DNA of 64,000 nt from Buxus sempervirens (lineage: Eukaryota; Streptophyta; Magnoliopsida; Buxales; Buxaceae): positions 2,114,976-2,178,975 of the forward strand of contig OX387187.1 in assembly GCA_947561395.2 (NCBI GenBank). Reading direction: 5' to 3'. The position numbers and the translations under genes were made by a program. Positions 11,857 through 34,804 of this stretch are shown here, piece after piece. The notes under the pieces were generated by a model that was not told the origin of the DNA, ran no database searches, and saw nothing but the letters and a program-made list of their open reading frames with translations. Numbering within the stretch: position 1 is the stretch's first letter; each line of letters opens with the position of its first letter.

Positions 11857-14170
11857 TGTGAGACACGGGAAAAAATCACCGGGATGATCATCCCTCCGTC
11901 AACACACGGGGCTCAATGTAAAAATTGGGAGAGTCTCCACCATTCAGAATTTTGAGGTGAGAATGGACACCAAAACTTTAAAAATAAGCAAAAAGTGCAA
12001 AAATTCCAATTCTAAGGTAAAAATAACCCTACTTGAAAATCAAATCCAGAGATGGGTAAGGGGATTAGATTATGAACGGGGGAAGGTATTAGGCACCCCT
12101 ATTCACCCATACAATGTGGTTGCCAAGTGTTATTCATGCTAAAAGAAAATAGAAAGCTTGCTAAAAAATCATGAAAAAGGACAAATATATGATATCTTCA
12201 CATGAAAATCCAAATGAATTCCAGATCTTCTTTTATGTTAATATCAATTCTGGAATATCACAAAAAGATGGAAATCACAGCAAAAGTTGCATAGAACCAA
12301 GTTGAAGCAAATTCGGGAAATTTGGTAAAAAGTAAGGCCATTTCTCTTGAAATTAATTAAATCCAATTTTAAATTAAATCAAACCAAATCCATTTGAAAG
12401 ATTAGGGTAAACAATAGTCTCATGCAAAATTTCAATTAATTCCGGTTGAAATCCTAAGAGTTATGGCTCTTTTAAAGTTGCTGCTGGAGAAAATCAAAAG
12501 TGGCAAGTAGGCAAGTTCGGAAAATCACCTAGAAACATCCACTCCATAAAAATCCATGAAATTTGGTGTGATTGAAGTCTGTATGGCCATATTTCGAACG
12601 AAACTAGCCTCATACAAAAATTCATTCGGATGTGCCTTGGGTGGTCTCCCAAACAGGCCCCGAAGATCACAAATTTACCCAGAAAAGTACTGATGAACAG
12701 TTCTGAGTAAATCCGTTACCAATAATTCAAATGGAGTCAAAAAATTATAAAACCAATTGCATTTGAAAATAGACTCATAAAGGAGTGCCCAGAAAAAAAA
12801 ATCATTCGAATTGGACTTAAAACGAACGCATGGCGCTCCGTCGAAATGACAAGTTCCGTATTTAAACCTGAACTGTCCAATCAACTTCGACAGAGAGGTG
12901 TAAAAAATCTGCTTGATAGAAATGAATGCAATTTGGTGGACATAAACTATACAGCCTCACCTTTCCCATGGTTCTAGAAATACTCCAAAATTCATCCGGA
13001 CGATGAAGTTATGAGCGTCCGAAGTAAGGGTACAGTTGCTGTCCAGCTATGCCAGTTTTGAGCAAAACCAATGCAAAACTATGACCAAGTGTGTGTAATT
13101 CGTGCAAAATGAACACAAAACCTTTAAAAATCATTTAAAAACATTCCAGAATTGATTGAGGCCATTTATTTGTGATTTATCACAATGAATGTAATAAATC
13201 CCCAAATGTGAGCCTATCCCGCCAAAATAGCGCTATGTATGTGCAAGTGTCAAAAATCATACAAGATCAATATAACAATATAGCATGCATACATATTCAT
13301 CAAAATAAGGTTCTAAAACAACCTAGGGTTCCGTTCCATTATCGTTTCCCTTTGTTCTCTCTCCCCGTTAAACACGGTTCTTCAAGATAATCATGGGGTA
13401 CTTTGAATATAAAACGGTTTTCAATCATTCAAAAAGGCTTTATGCTACATAGGTTCTAGCACTTGGGTCAATCCCCAGTCTCGTTTCTCCTAGATCCCGC
13501 CTTCAGGTTTTACGGCTAGGGGGAGTCTCGAGATACTTTGAGCTGGGGAAGGGTTTTCACACACACAAAAAGGCCTTATTCTACAGAAAGGTAGAAGAAG
13601 AGATCTAGATCTAGAAATGTAAAAACAGAAAATAAAAGAAAAGTTTAAGGCTTACCTGGGTTCTGGAAGCGATCCCGCGGCGGTTTCCCTTTTCTCTTGG
13701 AGCTCTTCTTGGCAAGAATTCAAAGCAAGAGTTAATGGCCATTTGCTTAAGGAGGAGCCTCCTATTTATAGGCAAAGGCTAGGGTTAGGGTTGGTGAGAA
13801 TGGTAGACATAACATAATGTCTATAGCCCACCAACCTTAACCCTAAGGCTATTTCCGAGATTTCCCCTCATTTAATGAGGGACATGATGGTAAAAGTGAA
13901 AAGCTCTCAGAAAACCCTAATTTTGAGCAAAAATTATGTATCCGGTATATCAGACCGGATACACAAGGACCTTAAGGTATCTGGTATATAATACCGGATA
14001 CACTAAAGCCTTCTTGTATTCGGTATGCTTCACCGGATACAAAGAGGAGTACTTGTATCCGGCCTAAGTTGCCGGATACAGGTAAAAACTTATTTTCTTC
14101 AATTTTGTGCTGGCTTTCAAGGAGATAATGATTTTTGATCATTTTGACAGTGCAATTTGGGGTGTCTACA
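11857..14170 (-). mobile_element. 3' LTR of E2 (family A)
   Basis: This 2314-bp partner of the LTR at 32510-34799 has the same palindrome phase (13937, 13976, 14015, 14054) and a TATA box at 13761-13772 (minus). Most of the differences I saw between the two LTRs in the final 430 bp are C/T or G/A changes, as expected from decay of methylated cytosines. Confidence 0.93.
13937..14080 (-). repeat. Palindrome array in the 3' LTR of E2, 39-bp phase
   Basis: Starts at 13937, 13976, 14015 and 14054, the same phase as the 5' LTR, with several arm substitutions of the C-to-T kind. Confidence 0.9.
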
Positions 14171-14185
14171 AGTGCCCCTCTTTGC
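14171..14185 (-). promoter_or_regulatory. Polypurine tract of E2
   Basis: On the minus strand GCAAAGAGGGGCACT lies immediately before the 3' LTR start TGTAGACACC. Its position and base composition fit the plus-strand primer. Confidence 0.87.
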
Positions 14186-14731
14186 GGGAGCTGCGAAGCA
14201 GTGAGCTGCAAAGATTAGATAAGCCCAAATTGCACTCCCTTAAGCATGATTTGCTTGATTCAATTCAATTTTGTAAAGAACAATTTTTGGGTGAAGATTT
14301 GCCAAAAAGCACTAACTTTAAGGGGGAATTTCTCCAAGAATTCTTAAATTCCACTGAGCTTTCGTGGCTATGAAGTGGATTTTAAGCCCGAAAATAGGAT
14401 TTCTTGAAAACTGATTTTTTATCAAACCAAGTTGAAAATTGAGTGGGTATCTTCCTTTTTGACCAGTACATTTCCCAAAGTTGTCCTAAATTCCATTGAG
14501 CTCTCGTGGCTGTGATGTGGATTTTAAGGCAAAAATAGGATTTTGTGAGAAAATAGTGAATTTTGCAGTGCATTTTTTGCTCTTTTTTTTCTCTTTTTTT
14601 CTTTTTCTTTTTTTTCTTTTTTTTTCTTTTTCCTTTTTTCTTTTTTTTTCTTTTTTCCTTTTCTTTTTTTCCTTTTTTAATTTCTTTTTCTCTTTTTTCC
14701 CTCTTTTTTTCTTTTTTTTTTCTTTTTCTTT
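14186..14731. other. E2 3' region between polypurine tract and antisense promoter
   Basis: Two copies of a segment ending TCCATTGAGCTCTCGTGGC or TCCACTGAGCTTTCGTGGC (near 14350 and 14490, about 140 bp apart) form a short direct repeat. They are followed by a long T/C-rich tract (14578-14730). No gene is supported. Confidence 0.6.
14578..14730. repeat. Low-complexity T-rich (TTTTC)n tract
   Basis: About 150 bp of T runs broken by single C. It lies directly upstream of the palindromes and TATA box of antisense gene 1. Such poly(dT) tracts disfavour nucleosomes and may help promoter opening. Confidence 0.9.
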
Positions 14732-14810
14732 TGTATCCGGTGTAGGGTACCGGATAAGGCAGGGCTCGTGTGTATCCGGCCTAATTCACCGGATACACAC
14801 AGCTTTATAA
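14732..14810 (+). promoter_or_regulatory. Promoter module of E2 antisense gene 1: two palindromes plus TATA box
   Basis: TGTATCCGG-headed palindromes start at 14732 and 14771, exactly 39 bp apart. The second ends about 5 bp before the TATA box CTTTATAA (14803-14810). The downstream GC-rich GTCGCGCGCGACCGCGAC segment is also present, in altered form, upstream of the E3 homologue (about 61940-61965, minus). Confidence 0.75.
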
Positions 14811-17800
14811 GTCGCGCGCGACCGCGACTTTTCACATTCTTTTCTTCCTTCTCCGTTTGCAAATCCCGGCTACATCTCTTTCCTTCTTCGACGACCGACG
14901 ATCCTCCTTCCTTCTCCGGTCATTTCCGACGAGTCCTAGAGCTCCGACGACCCTCCATTGACTCCGGCGACTTGGATTGGCCGCTGCGACCAAGTCCTGG
15001 TTTGGTACTTTGGTTTTTCGCTCGTCTCCAATTGATTGCCGACTTCAACCAGCACCGGCGACTCGGGCATTCGTGCTTCCTTGCTCTTGCTTACCGCAAC
15101 CAACTTCTTGCTTCCAATTCCAAGTAAGTCTTTGAATGTTCAATCATGCTCCAGTTGTCGATTGCCACAATTTCGGACTATGTATTGACTTGAATTGAGC
15201 ATGATATAGATGCCAACTTTCTACATCTGTAGTGATCAATGCACGATTGAAAATGGCTTTGTTGATGTTTGCCTATGACTAAGACCCCGATGGATTGATA
15301 TCATGCTGTTGCTTGACTTCTACATTGATCCTGTCAGTTTTTTTTTGAATTGTCTGTCAGTGGAATCCGAATTGTCTGGTTTTTTGAATGATTTGCTGCT
15401 AATGCCATGCTATAATTTTTCTTGCATTTGGATTTTCATGCCATGCTGCAATTGAACCATGCTGCATTTTTGATGGGAATTCTGCTTTTTATATCACTCT
15501 TGTAATTGGGCGTTGCAATTGAATTATGCTATCACTTTCTCCTTGACTGGAATCCTGCTTATTGCAACTGAACCATGCTGTGATTTTTCTTTTACTGGAA
15601 TTCTGCCTGTTGCAACTGAACCATGCTGTGGTTTTCCTCTGACTGGAATTCTGATTCTTGTATTTCGCAATTTTCCATTGATCCCCTTCACAAGCTATGA
15701 CTTATTCCTTTCCCTCAATTTGCTTCAGTGGTAGTACACTTTTGATTAATGTGTTGCTCCACTTGTCTGAACACTTCCATGATTGGCCATTGGGACTTCA
15801 TCCCTATGTAGGAGACCTGAAATAGGTTTGCAGATATTAGGATTTCAGGACAAAAGTTTAGCATCAGATTCCATAAACTAGAAATACCAACTTCTTAAGA
15901 AGACTTTGAACCAAAACAGATAATAGAATTGAAGTAAGCTTCCTTTAAGACCCACAGAAGAAAAAATCATGTAAGATCCCTGATGAACTGAATCTTAAAG
16001 CAAGTTTTAAAATTTTTGGTAAACCTGTACTGAAACTCAGAAGATACTTCCCTGTGTAGATGGCTAGGAGTCGTTCCCGAGTTAGAGAGGAGGCTGATCC
16101 TGCTGATCAGCCCTCCACTTCGCGGGCTCGAGTAGAGGCAAGTTCTAGCGCTTCCCTTTCGGAGCCGCTAGCTGATTCCAAAGAGAGCTCTGCTGAGGTA
16201 GTCCTTCAAGTTCTTCTCTTCCCTCATTCTATTTCCTTCCTATACAACCTTTATATTTTCCTTTTTGGATTTTAGCCCGTGGTTGCTCCTGCTCGAGGTC
16301 GGGGTAGAGGTCGAGGCAGAGTTCATGATCAGGCCCTCGAGGGTGAGAGAGGCCGTGGCAGAGGCCGAGGCAGAGCCAGAGATGCGGCTCAGGATGGTGT
16401 TGCCGTAGCCTTGTTAGGGGTTTCTAAGGAGCTGAGAGCATTTGTTCATGATACAGAGCTCTTCAGTGGCTTGGATAGCCACCCCTCCATGTGCATCAGG
16501 GTAGATGTGCCTCTTCCATATCACTCCTCCCATTTGCGAGGCAGTTGGGGGAGATTCAGTGAGTTGGCACAGTCTCTTTCTCCGGCACTCAGACGCGAGT
16601 TTGGGAGGTGCCATTTGGATCATTTTCTTAGCATCCCATCGTTTAGAGCCGACCGTCCACTTATTTTTGCTATGATGGAGAGATATTTCCCGGAGACGCA
16701 GTCCTTCCATCTACCGGACGTGGAGCTAGGGATCCGTCCCTCTGACTTCGTGATGATTACTGGTATTCCTCTGACGAGGCTGACTATCGTTCTGGATCGG
16801 CCTTCCACGGAGGACATCGGCCTTCTCTTGGGATATCAGGCCCTGCCTCCTGCTGCTTGGGATGGGCGGAGTGGCCGTCTCTCTATTAGTTGGCTGCGGG
16901 AGAGCCTGGCTCGACATTTTGAGGGAAGACATGCGACCGTCGCTGTGGAGGATGCAGCCTTTGTTCCCATCTTTCGACATGTATTTTTGCTGCTGCTCGG
17001 GAGCTGCTTCTTCCCGGAGGATACGACTAGTGTCAGCCCGCTCTTCTTGGACGCCTTGCGAGATTTTCATCAGACCCGCCAGCTAGCATGGGGTTGGCTC
17101 ATCTATGGGACCATCCTAGCCGGGTTGTGCCGAGCGGTTCGAGGCCTGGCATCCCCGAGAGGTGATGGAGTCAACAGCCGGTTCTTTTGGCAGATTCTGC
17201 AGGTATTGAATTCATCTGTCTGGTTTAATCCCTTATACTTTATTTTCTTTATCTCTGACTGATTTTTCTTTTGCTAGGTGTTCATGTACACCTATATGAC
17301 TTTCTTCCGCCCATCCCCGGTACCTGAGGTCGCGGATTTCCCTGTGGCTTTACGGTGGTCGGCTCAGGTCCGAGATGCTGATAGGAGTTAGCCTCGTACT
17401 GCTCGGGTGCACTTGGACCGCGCCTGACGATCCAATGTAAATTCTTTGCCTTTTCCCTTTTGTTTCTTTTCCTGCACCTTGACTGTATATGACTATTTTT
17501 CTTCCTTGCAGCTCCTCTTGGCACGCTTTGATGACGTGGATGTCGGAGTGGCCCGTGAGATGGCTATACAGGACGCCTTTGATAGAGATCAGCGACGTCA
17601 GCCCTACCAGTGCTTCCTTGGGAGGCTTGGTAGGGTGATGTACTTGGGAGAGCGCCTGTACTACCAGCACACCGGCGTACTTCGTATCCTTGTTCCCCCT
17701 CCTCCTGTGGGTCCCGATACACTCCTACCGGGCTTTGATGTGGATCAGTTCGATCATTTCCATGATGCAGAGGGGCTCACAGTAGCTGGGGATTACGACG

Positions 17801-18647
17801 AGTGGATCCAGAGAGTATCCATGAGGACACTATGAGTCTTGTAATCTTCAAATTTTCATCCACTTTTCTTCCCTTCTATATTTCTGACCCCAATTCTGTT
17901 CTTGTTGGCAGGTACACGAGCTGAATACTATCCGGGACCGGTTCGAGAGTCAGCGGGCCGTGATCGATGATATGATCGCCGAGCATGATGCGGTCGTGGC
18001 CCAGAGGGATGCCCGGATCAGGGAGCTGGAGGCCCTAGTTGCTGAGCTCCAGGCTAGACAGGTATCTGGTCTTCTTATAATTTCACATCTTTAATTTTCC
18101 TGTTTCTGCTATTCTGATATGCTTGTTTGACTTGTGTAGGGCCCGGTCCCTGATGACGCTGCTTACGAGCCAGCTCCTCCGGCTCCTGATCTATCTCCGG
18201 TTCGGGGTGCTGATCCTGTGGATGTCCCCGTTGCTGACCCGGTTGAGCCGGATCCTCCTGTTCCTGCTGCAGATATTCCTGGTATGCTCTCTTTTAATTT
18301 TTCCCTCTTTGGTTCCTCTTTATATCTCAATTTTCTGATTTTTTTCTATTGTCCCAGATACTTCTGCTCCTGGCCCTTCTTCTGATGCTGCTGGGCCTTC
18401 TGGATCTGCGGGTCCAGTCGAGCCTGCTCGTGCTAAGCCCGAGACATCTTCTCCAAATTCTGCTCCTGCTCCGCCCCCAGACCTCGAGGAGTATTGCTTG
18501 GAGTATCAGATCCAGCAAGTTGTGGGCTGGCTTCCTCGTCATGCTGCCAAGCGTATTCTGGCCTACTCTAGGGGTCGATCGCTTCGAAGGAGAGGCCGTA
18601 GAGGTGGACGCGGCCAAGGACGCGGGGATGATCCTGCACAGGACTAG
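14811..18647 (+). CDS. E2 antisense gene 1: Arg/Gly-rich plant mobile domain protein
   Basis: The gene runs opposite to gag-pol. A CT-rich 5' UTR (to 15123) is followed by an apparent 936-bp intron (GTAAGT at 15124, AG at 16059). The ATG at 16060 lies exactly after the acceptor. The start MARSRSRVREE leads into a Ser/Ala-rich part, then RGRGRGRGR and similar Arg/Gly repeats. The plant mobile domain (about 16400-17300) has SFHLPDVELGIRPSDF and MITGIPL, the family's recognisable core. Further segments separated by GT-AG intron-like gaps of about 75 bp follow; a coiled coil lies near 17.93-18.06 kb and a basic RRRGRRGGRGQGRG tail ends at the stop (18645-18647). PMD proteins include the nuclear MAIN/MAIL1 family and are known cargo of plant transposons. 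The role here is unknown. It is part of the fossil element, and the E3 homologue is at 60373-57573. Confidence 0.8.
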
Positions 18648-18840
18648 TAGATTAGGATTTTTTCCATGTATTTATACCACACCTTGTATAGAAAAACTTG
18701 CATATATATAAGAAAATATTTTTATTCATTCTATCTTGTGTTGCACTTCTTTTCTTTTCAATTTTATGCAATTATGACTTGTACACAGGTAAAAAATTCG
18801 GATTTTCCATCCTTTGCTCTTTTTTTTTGCTGTTTTTCTT
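18648..18840 (+). other. Spacer between the two E2 antisense genes
   Basis: AT-rich sequence between the stop of gene 1 and the palindromes of gene 2. It would hold the 3' end of the first transcript. No clear single signal is identified. Confidence 0.5.
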
Positions 18841-19003
18841 TGTATCCGGCATATCAGACCGGATATACTGAGTTTTATTTGTATCCGGTATAATATACCG
18901 GATACACTAAAAAGCCTTTGTATCCGGCATTATTCACCGGATATGAAGAGAATGCCTTGTATCCGGTTTGATATACCGGATACTTTAAAACATGCTATAA
19001 ATG
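18841..19003 (+). promoter_or_regulatory. Promoter module of E2 antisense gene 2: four palindromes plus TATA box
   Basis: Palindromes start at 18841, 18880, 18919 and 18958, an exact 39-bp phase. The last ends about 10 bp before the TATA box CTATAAATG (18995). This is the same arrangement as in the E2 LTRs and the E1/family B LTRs. Confidence 0.8.
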
Positions 19004-19111
19004 CAACCAGCATCGGGATTTGCACATTTTTTATGAGTTTTTGAGTTTAGAAACCCCTTTTCCGCCTTTTTCTTTCTCTCCTTGAGTTCTAGCTTGCTCC
19101 CATCAACTCCA

Positions 19112-20842
19112 ATGGAATCCGGATCATCTTCTGCCCCATTATTGTCTGTCCACACTGTCTCCCCTACAAAACAACCTTTTAGATCAAAACCACCAAATCT
19201 CACTAGGTACAACCCTGTGGATTCCTTTTACACAAGATGGGTTAACTCTATGACTCTTGATGAGGAGAGGAGATGGGATTCCACTAATCTAGGCCACACC
19301 CTGCTCATTCCAAAGGTTCCCTTCAAGTGGGAGATTATAGAGGCCATGATTGGTCATTGGGTTCCCGACCTCAACTTGTTCCGTTTTGGGAACCATGAGA
19401 TGACCCCAACCATTGAGGAGGTGGAAACCATCCTGGGCTTGAGGTTTGATGAAAAGGTGGTGAATCCACCTCTTAGGCCCAGCTACAAAAGGAGGCTTCT
19501 ACTTTCTGGGCATAGGGAAGAAGGACTTAGGAGATTCTGACACCCTATTGACCTTGTCTAAGTCTTTTTTAATTGAGAAGCTTTTGAGAGGGGAAAATAA
19601 GGATGCCCGGTTCAACGCCTTGACCCTGATAGTGGTCAACCAGCTACTTTTCCCACAAGATGATGACAAGGTGGACTTGGCCCTGATCTCAGTGATATGC
19701 CAGGTTAGGGAGCGGGAGAGGTTGGCCCCTATGATTTTGGCTGGGATGTATCAGGCCTTGACTGATTGCTACAATAGGAAGTCGAAACGCTTCCTAGCAT
19801 GTGCCCAAATCCTGCTGGTAAAAAAAAAAATTTTTTTTCTGTTTTTTTTTTGTTTTTGCTTCTTTGCCTTTTTTTTTTTTTTGCTTTTTTGCTTTTTTCT
19901 TGCTTTTTTTCTTTTACAATGTGCTGATATATCTCTCTTCCTTTGCAGATTTGGCTACTTGATCATCTGAGTCAAATTGAGGAAATCAATCGACACTTCT
20001 TCCCGAGCTTGAAAGTCCCCATCTTGATGAGCAACCGGGGGTGTCCCGATATTCCAGGGGGCAAACAGGGTTGGTTCACTTTCTTGGATTCACTCCAGGA
20101 TGACCAGGTGAGATGGCCTAGTACTTATCAACCCAATGCAGAGACTGTGATTAGCTTCCAAGACCGCAACTTTCTGATTCTAGCTGGCCTGTGACATGCA
20201 GTGCTTTATCTTCCTTTGCGGGTCTTTCGCCAGTTTAGAGCGACCCAGGGGATTATAATCCCAGGTGGGTATGAGGATCATCTTGGGCCTCTCTCTCCAG
20301 CTACCATGAAGCTGAATGCCTGGTTGATGAGGGAGTGGTCATATGTTCGCTTCATGCGTAGCCCCGTCTTCTCAGAAGCCCATGTGAAGGACTATCTCTT
20401 CTGGATCAGGGAGCAGATACAGAGTCAGGCTTCAGTACCTGAAGATCCTCCTGCAGTCTTGGCTCCTACTTATGAGGATATTTTAGAGTCTGAGAGAGCT
20501 TCCCACAAGCGACTTCAGCAGATATGGGTACGAGAGGCCCAGGAGCTTAGGATACGGGGCCTTGACATGGAGAGGCAACTTGCAGAGCAGATATCTCGCC
20601 GTCTGGCTATGGAGAAGCAACTTGAGGAGCATAGGCAGGCCCGCTGTCTTGAAGTCCGAGCACTGAGGCAGAAGCACCAGGATGCTTTAGCCGACCTTAG
20701 GAGCATGCGGATTAGGCAGACTCTTTCAGATGAGGTCATTTCCTTCTTGAGTGATCCCGCTGCAGAGGGGGCTTCTAGAGTTATTGCAGCTCAGGCAACT
20801 CGGATTCGGGAGCTTGAGGAGCGGCTAGGAGACAGAGATTAG
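19112..20842 (+). CDS. E2 antisense gene 2: DUF7745-like retroelement-linked protein with coiled coil
   Basis: The start MESGSSSAP is at 19112, preceded by a TATA box about 110 bp upstream. The N-terminal half contains FKWEIIEAMIGHWVPDLN, LFRFGNHEMTPTIEEVETIL and LTLIVVNQLLFP, a pattern of plant retroelement-linked proteins related to PMD and usually labelled DUF7745; this family name is from memory. An intron-like gap rich in T (19818-19948, GT to AG) has a counterpart in E3 (56379-56293). The C-terminal part (about 20480-20842) is a long Glu/Arg/Gln-rich coiled coil ending RIRELEERLGDRD. It is broken at few places. No function is known; dimerisation through the coiled coil is likely. It is convergent with E2 integrase. 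Confidence 0.75.
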
Positions 20843-21768: not shown

Positions 21769-22656
21769 TCAAGGAAAATACCTTTTTACTGCATCGGAGT
21801 TAATTGGCTCAGGAAAATCTGACCCATCCATTTCTGCTAAGATGAGTGCACCCCCTGACAGGACCTTCTTGACGACATAAGGCCCTTCCCAATTGGGCTT
21901 GAACTTACCACGAGGGTCTTCCAAAAATGGTAGAATTTTCTTTAGAACTAGGTTTCCTTCTTGGAAAGTTCTGGACCTCACTTTCTTATTGTAGGCCCGG
22001 GCCATTCTCCTCTGGTACAATTGGCCATGACATAGTGCTTTCAATCGCTTCTCTTCTATTAGGTTGAGTTGATCATGTCATGACTGTACCCATTCGGCTT
22101 CTTCCAGTTCTGCTTCCATGAACACTCTGAGTGATGGGATTTCTACTTTCACTGGCAAGACTGCTTCCATCCCATAGACTAGGGAATACGGGGTTGCCCC
22201 AGTGGAAGTCCGGATTGAGGTTCTGTAGGCATGTAGAGCAAGTGGCAGCATTTCGTGCCAATCCTTGTAGCTTACTTCCATATTTTGAATGATTTTCTTT
22301 ATATTCTTGTTTACTGCTTCCACTGCCCCATTCATCTTTGGCTTGTATGGAGCTGACTTCTGGTGGGTGATCTGAAACTGCTCACACATCTTCTTCATGT
22401 CCTTGTTCTTAATATTTGAAGCATTGTCTGATACTATGGCACTTGGCAGTCCATAGCGACAAATGATATTGTGCTTCAAAAATTTAATGACATGGTTGCT
22501 TGTGATGTTTGCATATGATGCTGCTTCCACCCATTTAGTGAAGTAATCAATTGCCACCAGGATGAATCTGTGCCCGTTCGATGCCTTAGGGGAGATCATG
22601 CCAATAACATCTATGCCCCACATAGAGAAGGGCCATGGGGACGTCATGTTGTGCAA
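21769..22656 (-). pseudogene. int: E2 integrase core and C-terminal domain
   Basis: The core piece (22078-22656) contains WGIDVIG, AIVSDNASN and MNGAVEAVNKN, the three acidic positions of the D,D(35)E triad, and HAYRTSIRTSTGATPYSLVYG. The C-terminal piece (21769-22044) has FKPNWEGPYVVKKV and ends DAVKRYFP. No chromodomain is present. It is broken at few places and closely matches E3 integrase. Its 3' end faces the antisense gene ending at 20842 (convergent arrangement). Confidence 0.88.
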
Positions 22657-22698
22657 CTCACCCGGGGGTGCATGCTTATTATCTGCATAGATTTGACA

Positions 22699-25302: not shown

Positions 25303-26048
25303 AATTCCCCTGAAGACGAAGGCTCATTAGGACCTTCAGGGAAATGGCAATCCACTATTGGAGTTTTTTTTGGAAGTCGCGTCAGTTTGCCACACAGACG
25401 CTGCCTCAAAGGTAAGGGGAGTTTCCTCCCAATTGTTTAATACAAAATTTTTGGGAGCAGGGGAAATAGGGAAAGCCTGCTCCTCAAGCCCCGCGTCCGA
25501 TGCCATCATCACCGAGTGGGTACTGCCTTTTCTGCTACAGGGCCCAGTCCAGATATAACCTCATCCGGAATCTTTACTGCGCCCCAGTCAATGAATGGTA
25601 GCTCGTTGTCACTACCAGCTTTTTCGTCTTCAGTCATGGCGAAGAAAGCCCCCACATCTTCAGAGAAGTCTGTCCGCTGCTCTGGTTGTGGCCCAGGCCC
25701 ATCCATTGCTCCCAGTATGGGAGATGGGTTGTATGGTTGCAAGGTCGAAACAAATGGCTTTTGAAATGGGTTGACGTTGTGGTAAGGAGGTTTGGACTGG
25801 TCCATGAGAGGAGACAGTTGGATGATGCAAGAGGGTTTTGGAAAACTTTCCTTTAAATGAGGGAGTTTTCCTTTACTTCTTTCCTTTCTTTCTTCATGCT
25901 TCATCCTCCTCCACCCTCTGGGCTTGAAGCCCAACCCTACTTTAGGGATCAGTTTCTTAGCCGTGATTGGCTCCACCATCCCTTGCAAATTGATTCCCAG
26001 GCCTTTCCCTGGGTGAAAGTGGTATTTTTCCATCACTTTCTTCACCAT
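25303..26048 (-). pseudogene. E2 post-protease linker with G-patch-like motif
   Basis: The piece 25509-26048 starts with a MVKKVMEKYHFHPGKGLG stretch and then VGLGFKPRGW, a G-patch-like pattern in the same place as in E1 and E3. It is followed by a Pro/Ser-rich linker. The stretch to 25303 links to RT. Some Ogre/Tat elements are known to splice between protease and RT; I see no firm proof of that here. Confidence 0.6.
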
Positions 26049-26063
26049 CTTCTCAGCAGTTGT

Positions 26064-28493
26064 TTATTTTCTTTTTTCTTTCTCACACCCCCCAGGTATG
26101 TAATTGACCGTCTCGAACTGAAATGAGTGAAACACAATCTTGTCGACAGTTAAGTCCACGTTTATCAAGGGTACATCAGGTGACACAATGGGAGGCACCA
26201 AGTTTTCAGTTAGGACTGTTATCACCCTTTGCCCTCTTACATATTTCACCCTTTGGTGAAGCGTGGATGGTATTGCCCTAGCCGAATGTATCCACGGCCT
26301 CCCTAGGAGCAGATTGAAGGCTGCGGGTATATCCATCACCTCAAATGTGATGTTGAAGATATTCGGCCCAATTGTGACCGGCAGTTCAATCTCCCCTAGG
26401 GAGTGGGTTTTGGAGCTATCAAAAGCCCTCACTATTCTCTCATTCTGTTTAATTCTTGACTGGTCCAGACCAAGCTTGGTAAAAGTGATTAACGGGCAAA
26501 CGTTTAACGCCGACCCGTTGTCAATTAAAACCTGTGCAATCATGCAGCCCTTACAAAGCACTGTGATGTGCAAAGGGTCAACGTGATAGCACCCACCTGG
26601 GCTGATCTCACCCTCTGAGAAACTTATCACATTATGTGATAAGATTTGACCAACCATTTTGCCAAGCTGGTCTGGATCGAATGTCTGGGATACGTGTGCA
26701 CTCTGTAGCACCCTTAACAATGCATCCCTGTGCTTTTCAGAATTCAGCAAAAGGCCCAGTATTGAAATCTGGGCCGGGACCTTATTCAGCTGATCCACAA
26801 GATTGAATTCACTTTTTTTGATTATTTTTATGAGGTCTGCTGCCTCATTTTCTGCACCCTGGGGGGTGTCTTCTCCTATTTTTGTCTTTCCTTTCTGTTT
26901 TCTTTTTTCTTCTGTTTCTTTTTTTTCTTTTTCTACTTCTGTCTCCTTCTCTTTCTCTTCACCCCCTGCACATCTCCCTAACCTCGTCATGAGGTTCACC
27001 TTCTCCTGGTTCTGGTTCCTAACCACTGGAACCGTAGCCGTGATTCCCTCGCAGTAATTCCATGGTACAGCGGCCTCAGAATAGGCTAGTTTGGGGATAT
27101 TAACCACTAATGGCTGGAGTTTGGACAGGGATGAATGGGCCGGTTTAGGAAAAGTCTGGGCTGGCTGAACATTTACAACCAAGGGTTGAAGTTTGGACTT
27201 TGTGGGGACAGAAGAGGTGATGGAAGCAGTGGTGGGATCAAGGTTGATGACCAGTGGAGCCTTGGACGGCTTGGATGGTGAATAAATGGGTGGACTGCAA
27301 TTGAAGACCAATGGAGGCCTTGCAGTATTCATCTGGGCCATAAGAGAGGAGATTCGATTTAAAGAGGAGCTTATGTCCTCAGCAGCAGAATTATTTTTCT
27401 GGGAGACCATGTTGATCTCCTCTTCTTCCTTTTCTCGGAAAAATTGGACCTGGACCGTGGTCCCTACTGGAGCTATGAGCTGAGATGGGTCAAAGGCCCT
27501 TCTTGTAGTGGATATGGCAGTGATGGAGTTGGATGGGTCTGCCCCATTGCGGTACGGCAGAGGGTTCTGCCCAATATCATTCCCGGACGGGGCTGGTGCA
27601 GCAATGTTAAACACCAAGGCCTTCTGGTCCAACAAGTCCTGGACCGCGTGTTTCAACACCCAGCAGACATCTGTAGAATGCCCCGGTGCACCCATGTGGA
27701 AGTCACAGGTGACCGCTGAGTCAAAATTCCTCCCCTTGGTGGCATTCGGGTTGGGCTCTTTCAGAGTCAAATACTCCCCCTTCAGCAGGGTTGGTAGCAG
27801 CTGGGATAGAGATATCGGGAGAGGCGTAAAGACACGGTTCCTCCTTGTTGCTAACCAGGCCTCCCTCTCTTCCTTGGTAAAAGCCCTCCTTGGGTTTGCT
27901 GGTACGGAGGGGGAGAAATTGACATTCAGTGGGGTCTGATAAGACTGCTGGGCCTGCTGGGCCTGTTCGGGTGCAGAGATGTTGACGTGGAGCGGCTTCT
28001 TGGCTGGAGGAGCCTGGACCTGGTTCACTTCTCCTTCTTTTCGGGCCCCGTTATTCTTGAACCCGGTTCCCTTCTTCTGGGCCATGGATGCAGAGGAATC
28101 AGGCTGCCCAGTCAGAGTAGAGTAGTCTATCAGCCTTCCTAACTTGACCCCTTCCTCGATCCGGTCCACTACCTGTACCAAGGCTGCAAAGTTGGTGGTG
28201 ATCTGGCCCACCAGATGGTTGTAGAAAGGCTGCCCCAGTGTGCCCATGGATGTTGAAATCATTTCCGGCTCCTGCATAGGCGGCCTGACCTGGGAGGCGG
28301 CCTCTCTCCACCTCTTGGCATACTGCCGTACCGGCTCATCTTTCCCTTTACTCATCCTCATCATGTCGTGCCGGTTTGGCACGATCTCAGAGTTAAACTT
28401 GTACTGATCCAGGAACGCGTCAGCCAAGTCCTTCCACCTCCTGATTCTTCCATGGTCCACTGTAGCGAACCACCTAAGAGCTGACCCGGTCAA
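26064..28493 (-). CDS. gag-pro: E2 Gag core and aspartic protease (809-residue open piece)
   Basis: The first about 130 residues hold the gag core (WFATVDHGRIRRWKDLADAF, QYAKRWREAA). A zinc-knuckle-like C263-x2-H266-x5-H272-x4-C277 follows. A Pro/Ser-rich and then highly charged Lys/Glu region lies between Gag and protease. The protease domain has its catalytic D658 in LIDNGSALNVCP; the final part includes the LLLGRPWIH stretch typical of retroelement proteases. It would supply capsid protein and the enzyme that cuts the polyprotein. It is the longest continuous gag-protease frame in the window, and the E3 copy at 43114-45300 aligns with it throughout. Confidence 0.9.
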   Translation of the reverse strand: MTGSALRWFATVDHGRIRRWKDLADAFLDQYKFNSEIVPNRHDMMRMSKGKDEPVRQYAKRWREAASQVRPPMQEPEMISTSMGTLGQPFYNHLVGQITTNFAALVQVVDRIEEGVKLGRLIDYSTLTGQPDSSASMAQKKGTGFKNNGARKEGEVNQVQAPPAKKPLHVNISAPEQAQQAQQSYQTPLNVNFSPSVPANPRRAFTKEEREAWLATRRNRVFTPLPISLSQLLPTLLKGEYLTLKEPNPNATKGRNFDSAVTCDFHMGAPGHSTDVCWVLKHAVQDLLDQKALVFNIAAPAPSGNDIGQNPLPYRNGADPSNSITAISTTRRAFDPSQLIAPVGTTVQVQFFREKEEEEINMVSQKNNSAAEDISSSLNRISSLMAQMNTARPPLVFNCSPPIYSPSKPSKAPLVINLDPTTASITSSVPTKSKLQPLVVNVQPAQTFPKPAHSSLSKLQPLVVNIPKLAYSEAAVPWNYCEGITATVPVVRNQNQEKVNLMTRLGRCAGGEEKEKETEVEKEKKETEEKRKQKGKTKIGEDTPQGAENEAADLIKIIKKSEFNLVDQLNKVPAQISILGLLLNSEKHRDALLRVLQSAHVSQTFDPDQLGKMVGQILSHNVISFSEGEISPGGCYHVDPLHITVLCKGCMIAQVLIDNGSALNVCPLITFTKLGLDQSRIKQNERIVRAFDSSKTHSLGEIELPVTIGPNIFNITFEVMDIPAAFNLLLGRPWIHSARAIPSTLHQRVKYVRGQRVITVLTENLVPPIVSPDVPLINVDLTVDKIVFHSFQFETVNYIPGGCEKEKRK

Positions 28494-28499
28494 ACTCCT

Positions 28500-29081
28500 C
28501 TAGAAGAGTTGAATTAATATGCTGTCATCCCGGCCAAACTGGCAAAGGGCCCCGCAGTATAATTTTAAGTGGCTCATAGGGCAGCCTGTGCCGTCGAATT
28601 TGTCGAAGTTCGGGCACTTGAACTTGGCCGGTAAGCATACGTCTGGATACATGCACAGATCCTCGAAAGTGGTGCCTCCATAGCTGTTTCCCCCCTTCAC
28701 TTCCTTCAGCTCTTCCTGGATCCTTTCTATCCTGAGTAGCATCTTCTTTTCCATCTCTTCTCTGGCCTTTTCCTTCTCCAGTTATTTCTCGGATTCTGCT
28801 GTATTTTCCCTGATCAGAATGGGTTCAGGGACTGGTTCAAAAATGGGCTCAGGCATGGGTTGAACCGGAGGCGGCATGTAGGCCTGAGGTGGTGGTGCCT
28901 GATGGGAAGTTGACGCTTGATTTTGGGCTTGAACCTGTTGGGCCTGAGCCGCCAGTAAGTCTCCCAGCATTTTGGCTAGACCAGCCACTTGCTCCTGCAG
29001 CTGAGCAAAGTCTTGAGCGGGTACGATGGCTTGAGCTTGGTTCTCTTCAGTATTCATGGCTCTGGCTTTGGATCTGGTCAC
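28500..29081 (-). pseudogene. gag: E2 gag, N-terminal part
   Basis: The start is at the MTRSKARAMN methionine (29081). The N-terminal part is Gln/Ala/Pro-rich with a predicted coiled coil (FAQLQEQVAGLAKMLGDLL). It is followed by a Glu/Lys-rich helix and the gag core entry LPAKFKCPNFDKFDGTGCP (28.6 kb), which matches E1. It continues into the next piece downstream on the minus strand. Confidence 0.85.
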
Positions 29082-29239
29082 GGGAGCAATGGTTGCAAAT
29101 AATTGTACCTGGGTTGCAAGTAAATGTACCTGGGGAAAAAATTAATAGAACATGTTAGCTTCCATTTAACTTGAGTCACACCCTTATACATGTAAACAAA
29201 TAGGTTAGGTGAACACCAATCCAGATTTGTTTTTTTTTT

Positions 29240-30545
29240 TTTTTTGTGTTGGAATATTTTAGGGCTTCCAAGGGTCCCAAAAATTTTTTTGATTTGATTG
29301 GTGCAAAAAAGACCAACCAAGGGTTCATGGAATATTTTAAGGCTTCCAGAGGTCCCACTTTTTTTTTTTTTGGCTTGATTGGTAAAAAGAAGACCAACCA
29401 AGGGTTCATGGAATATTTTAGGGCTTTCAAAGGTCCCACTTTTTTTTTTGACTTGATTGGTAAAAAGAAGACCAACCAAGGGTTCATGGAATATTTTAGG
29501 GCTTATAAAGGTCCCACAATTTTTTGATTTGATTGGTAAAAAGAAGACCAACCAAGGGTTCATGGAATATTTTAGGGCTTCCAGAGGTCCCACTTTTTTG
29601 ATTTGATTGGTAAAAAGAAGACCAACCAAGGGTTCATGGAATATTTTAGGACTTCCAGAGGTCTCACAATTTTTTGATTTGATTGGTAAAAAGAAGACCA
29701 ACCAAGGGTTCATGGAATATTTTAGGGCTTCCAAAGGTCCCACAATTTTTTGATTTGATTGGTAAAAAGAAGACCAACCAAGGGTTCATGGAATATTTTA
29801 GGGCTTCCAGAGGTCCCACCTTTTTTATTTGATTGGTACGAAAAAGACCAACCAAGGGTTTTTATGGAATATTTTAGGGTTTCCAAAGGTCCCACAATTT
29901 TTTGATTTGATTGGTAAAAAGAAAACCAACCAAGGGTTCATGGAATATTTTAGGGCTTCCAGAGGTCCCACAATTTTTTGATTTGATTGGTAAAAAGAAG
30001 ACCAACCAAGGGTTCATGGAATATTTTAGGGCTTCCAAAGGTCCCACAATTTTTTGATTTGATTGCTAAAAAAAAGACCAACCAAGGGTTCATGGAATAT
30101 TGTAGGGCTTCCAGAGGTCCCACCTTTTTTTTATTTGATTGGTACGAAAAAGACCAACCAAGGGTTTTTGTGGAATATTTTAGGGCTTCCAAAGGTCCCA
30201 CAATTTTTTGATTTGATTGGTAAAAAGAAGACCAACCAAGGGTTCATGGAATATTTTAGGGCTTCCAGAGGTCCCATTTTTTTTTATTTGATTGGTACGA
30301 AAAAGACCAACCAAGGGTTTTTATGGAATATTTTAGGGTTTCCAAAGGTCCCACAATTTTTTGATTTGATTGGTAAAAAGAAGACCAACCAAGGGTTCAT
30401 GGAATATTTTAAGGCTTCCAGAGGTCCCACTTTTTTTTTTGACTTGATTAGTAAAAAGAAGACCAACCAAGGATTCATGGAATATTTTAGGGCTTCCAGA
30501 GGTCCCATTTTTTTCAGATTTGATTGATAAAAATAATCAACCAAG
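29240..30545. repeat. Tandem repeat array, 76-bp unit, about 17 copies
   Basis: Each unit carries GACCAACCAAGGGTTCATGG, then AATATTTTAGGGCTTCC, a GGTCCCAC box, a run of T, and TGATTTGATTGGTAAAAAG. CCAACCAAGG starts recur about every 76 bp from 29313 to 30540. Variation lies mostly in the length of the T run. Long frames run through it on both strands, but they are a by-product of the repeat and are not annotated as genes. Confidence 0.93.
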
Positions 30546-30842
30546 GTTTATTTTTTTTTATTTATTTTTTCAAATTTGCTGAATTTTCTCAGTTTTCAAG
30601 TTCAAAAGTTGATTGACACATGTTTGAATTGAATTGATATCAAAAAAAATATGACACCTTAGCTTGTTCTTTGAGTTTCAACATTATGTTTAATCTGAAA
30701 GGAATATATTTTTTTATTTTTTATTTTTATTTTTTTTAGACATTTTTATATTTTCTTTGGGGTGCCTAAGGATTATCCACAGTGTTTAGGCATTTTATTC
30801 TGAAAATTCGGGCTGAAAAAGCCAATTTATTCATTTTCTGCA

Positions 30843-30983
30843 TGTATCTGGCATTAAGTGCCGGATAAGCATATGTCTTATTGTATCCGGCAATAATGAC
30901 CGGATACACGCATAAGCCTTTGTATCCGGCAATATATACCGGATATGAAGAAAATTATTCTTAACCGGCCTAAGTTGCCGGTT
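30843..30983. repeat. Palindrome array in the leader of E2, 39-bp phase
   Basis: Starts at 30843, 30882, 30921 and 30960. The fourth unit uses TTAACCGG/CCGGTTAA arms but keeps the phase. No TATA box lies next to it on either strand, unlike the other arrays. Confidence 0.85.
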
Positions 30984-31779
30984 AATGCCGAAATGGCCAT
31001 TTTTGACTCATTTTTTCACTAGATTAGGTTTTTTTTTCATTCCCACTTGATGTTCACCTTAACTTGACCTTCAAAACTTGCCCCAAATTGGGCTTGGACA
31101 TCATACTTGTAAAATTCCCCAAATTCATGAAAAGAACATGGCATTACCTTGCCACCTTGTATTACCTTCATTCAATATGGTATTCACATTATACCTTGGC
31201 CTGTAAAACATGCAAACGGCCTTCCCACATTTACACCCAATTCCCCAAACGCAATTGTGTGCCTTTAGCTGAAAACGTGTTTCTCCACCTTCAAGCATAT
31301 GGTTTTTGGGTTTTGGCTTAATTGGCAACTTAGAACTCAAGTCTAGTGATGCTCGGAATCGAATCACAGATCCCATTGTCATCACATCATTGACTCAAAT
31401 TCTAAGGTAAATGTTTTCACTTTCGCTTTCCGAAGTCACGACCTCGGTGCGCCAAGCTACACACATTCATGGTTCAACTTCCTATAGGTAATGGGTAGGC
31501 TGTGCAAATAGTTTAAAGTGCTCAAGTGCAATTTAAAATTGTGGTAATATTCACAACGTCCCAGCCCCTTGCCACTCTTTTTCGTAGCCATGCATTCAAT
31601 TTCAAGCCAAGGTACATATGACAAAATAATGAAGCTAAATACAAGCAAGCAAGAGCCAAAGCAACCAAATATGCACAAAAATATTGCATGCCCAAAAAGT
31701 GGTATACAAGCATGTTATCATGTTGTACCAATAACCAAAAAAAATCATGCTAAACATGCTTGAAACCCAAAAGCATTCC

Positions 31780-32270
31780 CTAAATCTCAGATTTCATGCT
31801 TTTTTTTCATACTCAAAGTGTACCATTTCTACCCAAATTGAAGCCTAAAAATTTAGCACTTACTTGACATGGTTCAAAAGTGTTTCAATGAGGTAAAACA
31901 TGCTTAAGATCTCCCCAAAATACATTAAAATTTTCATATTTTTCATGCTCAAAAGTGCATCACTCATACCCCAAATTAATGCCTAAAAATTTAGCAACTA
32001 CTTGACATGGTATATTGGTGAAAACATGCTAAAAAAAATCCCACAATGTACACTAAAATTCCAGATTTCATGCTCTTGGTTTTCATGCTCAAATCAAGTC
32101 CCCCTATACCCCTAAATCAAAGGCATGGCATAATAAAAAATTTTAAGCACAAGAAAGCATGCTTCATGGGAATCATGTTTGAATACCCCAAAAATTCTGA
32201 ACTCCTAGATTTCATGCTTCTAATTCTCATGTTCAAGCCATGGTATTAAAAATTCAAATTAGAGCATGTT
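31780..32270. repeat. Diverged tandem repeats of about 130 bp in E2 leader
   Basis: Segments with CCTAAAAATTTAGCA followed by CTTGACATGG occur near 31846 and 31981 (about 135 bp apart), with a more diverged third copy near 32110. CATGCTCAA/CATGCTTC words recur between them. About three to four decayed units. Confidence 0.55.
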
Positions 32271-32489
32271 ATCACCAAATGCATCAAAATCATGCTTCAA
32301 GATAGGCTTTTCTTGAATCAATCTCTAGGCAACATCAAACAACACATACATGCCTTTGTCCATAGAAATTCCAAAGCATCACAATCAGATTTAAAATACC
32401 ACAATATGCACAATAAAATAAGCAAGATAGCAAGCATTCAAAAATAAGTAAAAAGTATGAATATACACAAAATGGCTTAAATCCACAAA

Positions 32490-32507
32490 TCCCCAGCAGA
32501 GTCGCCA
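32490..32507 (-). promoter_or_regulatory. Primer binding site of E2
   Basis: On the minus strand TGGCGACTCTGCTGGGGA starts two bases after the end of the 5' LTR. It begins TGG, complementary to the CCA tail of a tRNA. A primer of the tRNA-Arg kind is usual for Ogre/Tat elements; the exact tRNA was not checked. It confirms the minus orientation of E2. Confidence 0.85.
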
Positions 32508-32509
32508 GT

Positions 32510-34799
32510 TGTGAGACATGGGAAAAAATCACAGGGAGAGAGTCGCCACCATTCAGAATTTTGAGGTGAGAATGGACACCAAAAGTTTAAAAATAAGCAA
32601 AAAGTGCAAAAATGCCAATTCTAAGGTAAAAATAACCCTATTTGAAAATCAAATCCAGAGATGGGTAAGGGGATTAGATTATGAATGGTGGAATGTGTTA
32701 GGCACCCCCATTCACCCACACAAGGTGGTTGCCAAGTGTTATTCAAGCTAAAAGAAAATAGAAAGCTTGCTAAAAAATCATGAAAACCTTGAAAAAGGAT
32801 AAATATATGATATCTTCACATGAAAATCAATATGAATTCCAGATCTTCTTTTATGTTAATATCACTTCTGGAATATCACAAAAAGATGGAAATCACAGCA
32901 AAAGTTGCACAGACCCAAGTTGAGGCAAATCCGGGAAATTTGGTAAAAAGTAAGGCCATTTCTCTTGAAATTAATCAAATCCAATTTTAAATTAAATCAA
33001 ACCAAATCCATTTGAAAGATTAGGGTAAACAATAGTCTCATGCAAAATTTCAATTAATTCCGGTTGAAATCCTAAGAGTTATGGCTCTTTTAAAGTTGCT
33101 GCTGGAGAAAATCAAAAGTGGCAAGTAGGCATGTTCGGAAAATCACCTAGAAAAATCCACTACATTAAAATCCATGAAATTTGGTGTGATTAAAGTCTGT
33201 ATGGCCATATTTCGAACGAAACTAGCCTCATACAAAAATTCATTCGGATGTGCCTTGGGTGGTCTCCCGAACAGGCCCCGAAGATCACAAATTTACCCAG
33301 AAAAGTACGGATGAACAGTTCTGAGTAAATCCGTTACCAATAATTCAAATGGAGTCAAAAAATTATGAAACCAATTGGATTTGAAAATAAACTCATAAAG
33401 GAGTGCCTGGAAACAAAAATCATTCGAATCAGACTTAAAACGAACACATGGCGCTCCGTCGAAGTGACAAGTTCAGTATTTAAACCTGAACTGTCCAATC
33501 AACTTCGACAGAGAGGTGTCAAAACTCTGCTTGATAGAAATGAATGAAATTTGGTGGACATAAACTAGACAGCCTCACCTTTCACATGGTTCTAGAATTG
33601 CTCCAAAATTCATCCGGACGATGAAGTTATGAGCGTCCGAAGTAAGGGTACAGTTGCTGTCCAGCTATGCCAGTTTTGAGCAAAACCAATGCAAAACTGT
33701 GACCAAGTGTTTGTAATTCGTGCAAAATGAACACAAAACCTTTAAAAATCATTTAAAAACATTCCAGAATTGATTGAGGCCATTTATTTGTGATTTATCA
33801 CAATGAATGTAATAAATCCCCAAATGTGAGCCTATGCCGCCAAAATAGTGCTATATATGTGCAAGTGTGAAAAATCATATAAGATCAATATAACAATATA
33901 GCATGCATACATATTCATCAAAATAAGGTTCTAAAACAACCTAGGGTTCCGTTCCATTATCGTTTCCCTTTGTTCTCTCTCCCCGTTAAACACGGTTCTT
34001 CAAGATAATCATGGGGTACTTTGAATATGAAACGGTTTTCAATCATTCAAAAAGGCTTTATGCTACATAGGTTCTAGCACTAGGGTTAATCTCCAGTCTC
34101 GTTTCTCCTAGATCCTGCCTTCAGGTTTTACGGCTAGGGGGAGTCTCGAGATACTTTGAGCCGGGGAAAGGTTTTCACACACACAAAAAAGCCTTATTCT
34201 ACAGAAAGGTAGAAGAAAAGATCTAGATCTAGAAATGTAAAAACAGAAAATAAAAGAAAAGTTTAAGGCTTACCTGGGTTCTGGAAGCGATCCCGCGGCG
34301 GTTTCCCTCTTCTCTTGGAGCTCTTCTTGGCAAGAATTCAAAGCAAGAGTTAATGGCCATTTGCTTAAGGAGGAGCCTCCTATTTATAGGCAAAGGCTAG
34401 GGTTAGGGTTGGTGAGAATGGTAGACACAACATAATGTCTATAGCCCACCAACCTTAACCCTAAGGCTATTTCCGAGATTTCCCCTCATTTAATGAGGGA
34501 CATGATGGTAAAAGTGAAAAGCTCTCGGAAAACCCTAATTTTGAGCAAAACTTATGTATCCGGTATATCAGGCCGGATACACAAGGACCTTAAGGTATCC
34601 GGTATATAATACTGGATACACTAAAGCCTTCTTGTATCCAGTATGCTTCACCGGATACAAAGAAGAGTACTTGTATCCGGCCTGAGTTGCCGGATACAGG
34701 TAAAAACTTATTTTCTTCAATTTTTGTGCTGGCTTTCAAGGACATAATGATTTTTGATGATTATTGATCATTTTGACAGTACAATTTGGGGTGTCTACA
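32510..34799 (-). mobile_element. 5' LTR of E2 (family A)
   Basis: This 2290-bp LTR reads TGTAGACACC to GTCTCACA on the minus strand. It has four palindromes at 34555, 34594, 34633 and 34672 (exactly 39 bp apart), then an imperfect hairpin, then the TATA box CCTATAAATAGG (34379-34390, minus). It is followed on the minus strand by the primer binding site. It is paired with the LTR at 11857-14170. Confidence 0.93.
34555..34698 (-). repeat. Palindrome array in the 5' LTR of E2, 39-bp phase
   Basis: Four palindromes start at 34555, 34594, 34633 and 34672. Each has arms TGTATCCGG and CCGGATACA (with minor variation) around a 9-nt centre, plus a 12-nt spacer. Each intact arm includes a CCGG, a site for cytosine methylation. 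Confidence 0.9.
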
Positions 34800-34804
34800 A
34801 TGAC

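Follow-up and report, generated by a model that had tools for sequence, protein, structure and literature searches.

The sequence considered here is a 64-kb stretch of the Buxus sempervirens genome (contig OX387187.1 of assembly GCA_947561395.2, positions 2,114,976 to 2,178,975), referred to in full as the window; the genome searched with it comprises 676.5 Mb. The window is a nest of large Ty3/gypsy elements. One of them, E2, occupies approximately 11.9–34.8 kb (~22.9 kb), and its two long terminal repeats (LTRs) are 95.8% identical over 2263 aligned columns. The gag-pol region of E2 lies on the minus strand, and two antisense genes occupy the plus strand in the interval from pol to the 3′ LTR. 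Arrays of short, phased palindromes occur upstream of the LTR promoter and directly before both antisense promoters, and in sister families the corresponding promoters have other palindromes. These arrays are probably operators of a regulator that has co-evolved with each family.

E2 is an Ogre-like Ty3/gypsy element. A further mark of the Ogre lineage is a layout of gag-pro and RT-RH-INT as two ORFs parted by a gap; in E2, the coding capacity is distributed over separate frames (26064–28499, 25509–26063 and 22699–25323), but this copy may carry frameshifts. A primer-binding-site-like sequence, TGGCGACTCTGCTGGGGA, read by eye on the minus strand, comes after the 5′ LTR and is presumably a match to tRNA-Arg. 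The frame at 22699–25323 contains RT_RNaseH (454–558), RVT_3 (613–731) and a weak Integrase_H2C2 match from 824, which places an additional ribonuclease H (RNase H) between the first RNase H and integrase, and antisense gene 1 is an extra open reading frame (ORF) with a PMD match (PF10536, E 1e-11). Ogre elements have an additional RNase H between RNase H and integrase, and a PMD extra ORF in 57% of cases; the additional RNase H also marks Retand (PMC6317226). The Retand mark PF04195 (Transposase_28) gave no match up to E 1 in eight antisense pieces, four from E2 and four from E5, another element of the window, which do not include every exon.

The palindromic unit of E2, designated type A, is TGTATCCGG-N9-CCGGATACA, repeated at a 39-bp step. 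E2 contains 18 phased units (Table 1): each LTR has four, as do the leader and the region before gene 2, and gene 1 is preceded by two. An initial annotation of this DNA had located these arrays, and all of their coordinates were verified at the 39-bp step. It had further described one recurrent palindrome; the 18 units are indeed phased, but both arms are exact in only 7 of them, the other 11 having a mismatch in one or both arms. The annotation placed the last unit 5–10 bp before each antisense TATA box, which holds for gene 1 (8 bp) and slightly understates the distance at gene 2 (11 bp). Its claim of an array before every E2 promoter is borne out at the LTRs, gene 1 and gene 2 and not at the leader, where no promoter was recognised by eye; in both LTRs, the array is upstream of the sense promoter as claimed, but ~166 bp from the TATA box rather than adjoining it.

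Table 1. Features of the window and of further loci. Positions are those of the window unless a locus handle (L number) is given.
Feature	Position	Strand	Detail
E2 3′ LTR	11929–14171	−	Limits as aligned to the other LTR
E2 5′ LTR	32538–34800	−	Limits as aligned to the other LTR
E2 gag, reverse transcriptase, RNase H, second RNase H and integrase frames	22078–28499	−	Pfam matches for 22699–25323 and 26064–28499
Antisense gene 1	14806–18648	+	TATA to approximate coding end
Gene 1 open stretch with PMD (PF10536, E 1e-11)	16276–17262	+	
Antisense gene 2 (DUF7745, PMD-like)	18996–20842	+	From TATA; frame broken near 19.5 kb in this copy
E2 3′ LTR array, four units	13937–14080		Starts 13937, 13976, 14015, 14054; sense TATA near 13771 (−)
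E2 5′ LTR array, four units	34555–34698		Starts 34555, 34594, 34633, 34672; sense TATA near 34389 (−)
Gene 1 array, two units	14732–14797		Starts 14732, 14771; TATAA at 14806–14810
Gene 2 array, four units	18841–18984		Starts 18841, 18880, 18919, 18958; TATAAA at 18996–19001
Leader array, four units	30843–30986		Starts 30843, 30882, 30921, 30960
E1 LTR array, four units	4803–4946		Same type and place as in E2; LTR pieces ~86–88% identical to those of E2
Another LTR-like piece, three type A units	40015–40119		Directly before CTATAAAAG; further pair at 39873–39938
Inverted relative of the 40-kb LTR-like piece, type A units	53104–53340		Directly before CTATAAAAG (−)
E5 gene 2 promoter, type B	57220–57345		28-bp pairs
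E5 gene 1 promoter, decayed type B	61950–62040		One exact half-site
E5 LTR, type B palindromes	62528–62760		Sense TATA near 62962 (+)
E0, type C palindromes	726–912		28-bp step; before TATAAATA (928–935); probably the LTR promoter of a third family
Type B gene-2 loci	L068, L070, L071, L073, L075, L080		
Type C gene-2 loci	L072, L076, L081, L083, L084		
Type A′ gene-2 locus	L079		
Array-less DUF7745 places	L065, L066, L067, L069, L074, L077, L078, L082		
ATGCGGTTT context, type B gene 1 promoters	L085 1560–1710; L086 1420–1560		

The phasing far exceeds that of shuffled sequence. A loose scan of the window returned 51 units, compared with 4–15 in 20 first-order shuffles. Pairs of units exactly 39 bp apart number 26, with none at 28, 37, 38, 40 or 41 bp, and such 39-bp pairs were absent from 49 of 50 first-order shuffles, the remaining shuffle containing one. 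The module is not confined to E2, as units are also present in E1 (4803) and in nested elements at 39873, 40015, 42010, 51962, 53104 and 53275. Across the genome, the exact type A palindrome occurs at 14,723 places, a count that, like the others given below, includes copies by descent rather than independent events. Allowing any spacer of 0–30 nucleotides raises the count to only 14,793, 70 more, so that the spacer is 9 in 99.5% of cases. Between neighbouring units, CCGGATACA is followed by TGTATCCGG within a gap of 0–30 nucleotides in 7,661 matches genome-wide; among the matches listed, all on contig 1, the gap is exactly 12.

Copies of the antisense promoters were collected as the best-scoring matches to the window sequence beside the arrays, and are not a random sample. 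Four units are present in all 30 gene-2 copies (L005–L034, L005 being the window), one of which, L017, has a 2-nt slip. Two units were scored by script in 29 of 30 gene-1 copies (L035–L064, L035 being the window); the second unit of L056 is damaged, and two units were seen in L060 outside the script scoring. The 39-bp phase, on whose presence in other family members the initial annotation had staked its reading, is therefore found in the type A copies examined, the slip in L017 apart; other families use a step of 28 as well as 39.

Within these arrays, the half-sites are preserved relative to the intervening sequence. In 29 of the 30 gene-2 copies (L014, which lacks the anchor, is omitted), the fraction of bases differing from the majority is 0.040 in half-sites, 0.172 in cores and 0.205 in linkers; in the flanks it is 0.079 upstream and 0.028 downstream, the latter stretch being the search query, which partly accounts for its low value. 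Half-sites in the gene-2 copies thus vary 4–5 times less than the spacers between them. Gaps are absent from half-sites and linkers and occur in cores at a rate of 0.0019. The corresponding fractions for half-sites, cores, linkers, upstream and downstream flanks are 0.109, 0.330, 0.356, 0.128 and 0.345 in gene-1 copies and 0.084, 0.261, 0.209, 0.124 and 0.169 in LTR arrays, for 30 stretches each, including the poor stretches L037 and L060, in which arrays were located by half-site match, a procedure biased towards half-site conservation. It was also observed that cores and linkers of the gene-2 array at 18841–18984 and its copies L005–L034 (0.17–0.21) are more variable than the promoter flanks (0.03–0.08).

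Within E2, the arrays of the LTR, gene 2 and the leader can also be compared with one another. In direct orientation, their half-sites are 0.81–0.90 identical, while core plus linker is 0.47–0.57 identical. Because of this difference, the arrays are regarded as being of common origin, with half-sites kept; judged by sequence, they are old copies of a single four-unit cassette. The initial annotation had named a recent segmental copy as an origin that would undermine its reading, and core-plus-linker identities of 0.47–0.57 indicate old paralogues instead. BLAST alignments had presented the LTR and gene-2 arrays as inverted copies co-oriented with their promoters. This arrangement was rejected, as direct identity is higher (0.57 compared with 0.46); BLAST was misled on orientation because palindromic units align both ways.

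A common cassette origin would also suit neutral tandem repeats, satellite-like and without function, copied inside the element. This explanation is highly improbable, the least likely of those considered, in view of the 4–5-fold lower change in gene-2 half-sites, the lack of half-site and linker gaps, and the retention of four units in 30 of 30 gene-2 copies.

Sister families carry different palindromes at corresponding promoters, a feature that is new here. From 118 DUF7745 places in the genome, 20 were sampled for varied frame length and score, and 801 bp upstream of each was inspected. Phased palindromes were recognised by eye before gene 2 in 12 of these places: six of type B, five of type C and one of type A′. 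Half-site counts agree with the types assigned by eye, apart from a single TATCCGA in each of L065 and L078 and one or two B-like words per locus in the five of type C. Several of the array-less places have CAGATGAAAGA-type repeats in common instead.

Type B is AACCGCA-N7-TGCGGTT (3,706 genomic places, compared with 2 for a reversed control pattern), type C is CCCGTA-N7-TACGGG (12,309 compared with 24) and type A′ is TGTATCCGA-N9-TCGGATACA (6,031 compared with 0); these counts cover all places, whatever the host element. By eye, the step is 39 bp in type A, 28 or ~39 bp in type B and ~28 bp in type C. The sequence downstream of the gene-2 arrays was compared among seven sequences from these families, and the pairs that surpassed all 200 shuffles were 1 of 1 for A–A′, 3 of 3 for A–B, 3 of 3 for A′–B, 2 of 2 for A′–C, 4 of 6 (narrowly) for B–C and 0 of 2 for A–C. 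In most of the pairs compared, the core promoters that follow the gene-2 arrays are related across families. Type B half-sites were additionally noted at 54895–55020, between the pol end and the gene 2 3′ end of E5; a type A scan found no array at the corresponding place in E2.

Beneath their different words, the four types have a common grammar. Each places CCG at −8 to −6 and CGG at +6 to +8 from the dyad, giving CCG-N11-CGG, and the type A word can also be read as CGG-N9-CCG. The flanks of this CCG differ: TGTAT-CCG-G in A, TGTAT-CCG-A in A′, AA-CCG-CA in B and C-CCG-TA in C. Within the window, CCG-Nk-CGG occurs 46 times at k = 11 and 39 times at k = 37, the latter peak being the spacing of type A neighbours, and at most 23 times at any other k up to 36. 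In 16 type B and C loci, it occurs 70 times at k = 11, 35 times at k = 39 and at most 13 times at other k up to 40; eight array-less loci together contain a single CCG-N11-CGG. The chance of three words having one triplet at the same offset is ~7/4096 (~0.002), a rough, post hoc figure that assumes even base use. Leader unit 4 (30960) is a symmetric variant, TTAACCGG..CCGGTTAA, and outer bases are likewise changed symmetrically, with CCG-N11-CGG kept, in the units at 42010 and 52079 (GTGATCCGG..CCGGATCAC and TTGATCCGG..CCGGATCAA).

Symmetric changes in both arms, in A′ as well as in the units at 30960, 42010 and 52079, preserve the inverted repeat, as expected if the palindromes acted as RNA or DNA hairpins in packaging, dimerisation, small interfering RNA triggering or cruciform formation. 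A hairpin, however, requires neither a fixed step of 39 or 28 bp nor CCG at one distance from the dyad; the arms keep one word per family; and the gene 1 and gene 2 arrays lie upstream of TATA, where they would fall outside the transcript of the gene concerned. Such a role is very unlikely. Both it and the neutral repeat were set aside as principal explanations on the grounds of step, word and half-site conservation.

Within an element, the site type is concordant between promoters. E5 carries type B at its LTR, gene 2 and, in decayed form, gene 1, and all five arrays of E2 are of type A alone. Elsewhere, LTR and gene 1 have matching sites in L085 and L086 (both type B) and in L087 and L090 (both type C), and L088 has type C at gene 1 and one CCCGTA in a guessed LTR interval. 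The finest comparison is between A and A′, which was scored in 38 stretches: the 30 gene-1 copies and the eight best of 45 further matches resembling L064, whose relatives were found by sequence beside the array and not in it. LTR and gene 1 agree in 36 of the 37 scorable stretches (L060 is not scorable), with one tie; 28 have A at both promoters, and A′ occurs at both in eight, namely L064 and seven relatives. L089 is uninformative on the A′ match between LTR and gene 1, as other inserted LTR-like sequence is present. In the 28 type A stretches, 205 of 219 LTR half-sites and 104 of 107 gene-1 half-sites have G at base 9; in L091–L098, A occupies this base in 52 of 59 LTR half-sites and 32 of 32 gene-1 half-sites. 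Three of these stretches, L096, L097 and L098, combine A′ gene-1 arrays with partly A-type LTR arrays and are possibly intermediates or recombinants.

Comparison of cores and linkers indicates how the difference arose. A′ LTR units 1, 2 and 4 and gene-1 unit 2 are each most like the same-numbered A unit, so half-sites were changed in place in at least four of six units, and not by replacement of the array. Symmetric states dominate genome-wide, with 14,723 G/C and 6,031 A/T palindromes compared with 2,906 mixed ones. Generic CpG decay was rejected as the source of A′, since the half-site CpG is largely kept while the next base differs: in five A′ elements, picked because all of their scored sites had A at base 9, C and G are retained at 27/30 and 26/30 in one arm and at 29/30 and 30/30 in the other.

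Gene 2 matches PF24924 with E 5.9e-5 (below the cut-off) in 19037–19540 and E 5.9e-9 in 19464–19970, alongside weaker PMD matches, and the piece at 20195–20842 has no clear domain match. The E5 gene-1 piece at 59245–59901 contains, inside its PMD, a sub-threshold match to DUF1985 (E 0.25, 11.8 bits compared with a cut-off of 35.1); the E2 gene-1 piece gave no DUF1985 match, and no DUF287 match was obtained in the pieces scanned. Genes whose promoters contain the DOWN motif require the host PMD proteins MAIN and MAIL1 for their expression, and these proteins are not known to bind DNA directly (PMC7156037, PMC9899485).

Other repeats and insertions were observed in the nest. A 76-bp tandem array of ~17 copies occupies 29250–30533 in the E2 leader, near the leader palindromes, and the E1 LTR contains a 160-bp tandem duplication at 3971–4293. 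The pol of E5 is apparently interrupted at 46385–48515 by an A-family LTR, whose alignment stops short of the array-bearing end, and also at 50963–53900 by an LTR-like piece, an inverted relative of 39282–43082.

It is proposed, as rather likely, that the arrays serve as operators for a dimeric DNA-binding factor, one that is probably encoded by the antisense genes and co-evolves with the family concerned. An operator role is suggested by the palindromes themselves, their fixed spacer and fixed step, the preservation of half-sites relative to spacers, and the position of the arrays adjoining promoters. A regulator that changes with the family is suggested because the flanks differ while the grammar is kept, and because sites at different promoters differ together. 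Protein binding, a dimeric state, an element-encoded factor and the direction of regulation are what we infer from these features. The regulator is most likely element-encoded, the candidates being the antisense PMD protein of gene 1 and the PMD-like DUF7745 protein of gene 2. In the proposed mechanism, a dimeric, sequence-specific protein would act in trans on the LTR promoter and both antisense promoters, autoregulating its own genes while controlling gag-pol transcription. Its specificity would diverge together with its sites, giving each family a private switch. The steps of 39 and 28 differ by 11 bp, approximately one helical turn, which would place successive dimers on nearly the same face of the helix. 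By analogy with VANC and foamy-virus Tas, activation or anti-silencing is more likely than repression, since an element would gain by restarting its own silenced copies.

Several findings weigh against this proposal. A scan of pieces of both antisense genes, which do not include every gene 1 exon, revealed no known DNA-binding domain; PDB sequence searches gave no match for the gene 1 PMD frame and only weak matches for a gene-2 piece; and an AlphaFold model of the PMD frame, built from a two-row alignment, was unusable (mean predicted local distance difference test score 32.9). CCG-N11-CGG is intact in only 13 of the 18 E2 units, no promoter adjoining the leader array was recognised by eye, and no phased palindrome was found within 801 bp in 8 of the 20 DUF7745 places. 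The sequence downstream of the gene-2 TATA box varies even less than the half-sites, though it also served as the search query. Common descent accounts for part of the concordance of LTR and gene 1, given the physical linkage of the arrays; in addition, L097 combines A′ at gene 1 with a tied LTR array, L096 and L098 hold some G sites, and LTR unit 3 and gene-1 unit 1 do not retain their unit identity from A to A′. A further possibility is that of host factors with similar half-sites. The suggestion of the initial annotation that one dimeric factor uses operators at the sense promoter and both antisense promoters gains from the half-site constraint, the rigid spacing and the concerted LTR and gene-1 difference, and is not carried by the leader, where no promoter was recognised.

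The host-factor explanation survives best among the alternatives, although it is considered unlikely. It holds that host dimeric factors bind the arrays, each family having captured its own sites, and that the antisense proteins do something else. Boxes for host factors are an established feature of plant LTR promoters, as in the BII boxes of Tnt1, which bind defence-induced factors (PMC3316501), and the lack of a recognised DNA-binding domain in the antisense pieces scanned is in keeping with it. Yet a common CCG-N11-CGG with diverged flanks resembles one protein family changing specificity with its element, and the A to A′ difference runs through both the LTR and gene 1, which a fixed host factor does not need.

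A variant of the element-encoded proposal, in which the factor is mainly a repressor limiting copy number, is likewise improbable. Sites 8–11 bp from the antisense TATA boxes would suit steric repression and negative autoregulation, but the position of the E2 LTR array is an enhancer-like one.

VANDALs are Mutator-like DNA transposons; in anti-silencing of the VANC type, an element protein binds its motif and removes methylation. In Arabidopsis, VANC, the sequence-specific anti-silencing protein of VANDALs, binds short tandem-repeat motifs in noncoding regions of its own family, and related families have different motifs and proteins that are proposed to co-evolve (PMC5735166, PMC10398659). 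VANC carries DUF1985, and VANA is the transposase (PMC5735166). The E2 system resembles this one in its family-specific motifs, and the sub-threshold DUF1985 match in E5 gene 1 is a lead for distant kinship, not a finding. It differs in that E2 is an LTR retrotransposon, not a DNA transposon encoding VANC (DUF1985, DUF287), with PMD and DUF7745 proteins and phased palindromes at three promoters, two of them antisense; the string 'palindrom' is absent from the main text of PMC5735166.

Foamy viruses are animal retroviruses whose internal promoter is sense-oriented, and we know of no phased palindromes or family series of swapped operators in them. Tas, their accessory protein, binds both the LTR and the internal promoter (PMC4929722), and E2 similarly has the same site type at LTR and internal promoters.

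The factors that bind the Tnt1 BII boxes are of host origin, and to our knowledge these boxes are not shared with internal antisense promoters. Tnt1 and E2 are alike in having putative or known factor-binding boxes in a plant LTR retrotransposon promoter (PMC3316501). Antisense accessory ORFs are known from plant Tat-group elements as gene23 of Grande and TRP28 of Retand; the Retand domain is Transposase_28, not PMD, and the available text of these two sources describes no operator shared with the LTR (PMC11963269, PMC7264820).

The Spm protein TnpA, from a DNA transposon, modulates its own promoter and binds short repeated sites that surround it; these sites are not phased palindromes. MAIN and MAIL1, considered here together with PP7L, have the same domain as gene 1 and are linked to genes with a promoter motif (PMC7156037, PMC9899485, PMC5418596), but they are host genes, and the DOWN motif, CATGCAGTTT in MORC1, is not CCG-N11-CGG (PMC9899485). 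CATGCAGTTT resembles the type B half-site context ATGCGGTTT, which is one word and may be chance.

The initial annotation knew of no described system of this form. The combination was indeed not found among the papers listed, but its parts have precedents in VANC and VANDAL, foamy-virus Tas and the Tnt1 BII boxes. Among the open-licence papers listed by literature searches, titles and abstract openings revealed no palindromic operators shared between LTR and antisense promoters, and operator sharing with antisense promoters is unmentioned in the available portions of PMC11963269, PMC7264820, PMC6317226 and PMC5418596.

A broader and more tentative suggestion, drawn from the site patterns, is that PMD and DUF7745 proteins could be dimeric DNA-binding regulators that read CCG-N11-CGG, with a private flank code for each Ogre-type family, in a self-encoded circuit of activation or anti-silencing; MAIN and MAIL1, and perhaps VANC with its DUF1985, would be relatives. 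The function of the antisense accessory gene and of PMD is presented as an open question in the available text of PMC7264820, PMC11963269 and PMC5418596. A private, co-evolving operator code would make this question testable, by presenting the protein of a given family with the palindrome of the same family. If the proposal is true, plant retrotransposons have transcriptional circuits like those of retroviruses, and this single genome offers a natural specificity series, made up of four related site types and their matched genes. The four types together comprise >36,000 sites, which would then supply the host genome with a large stock of sequence for regulator binding.

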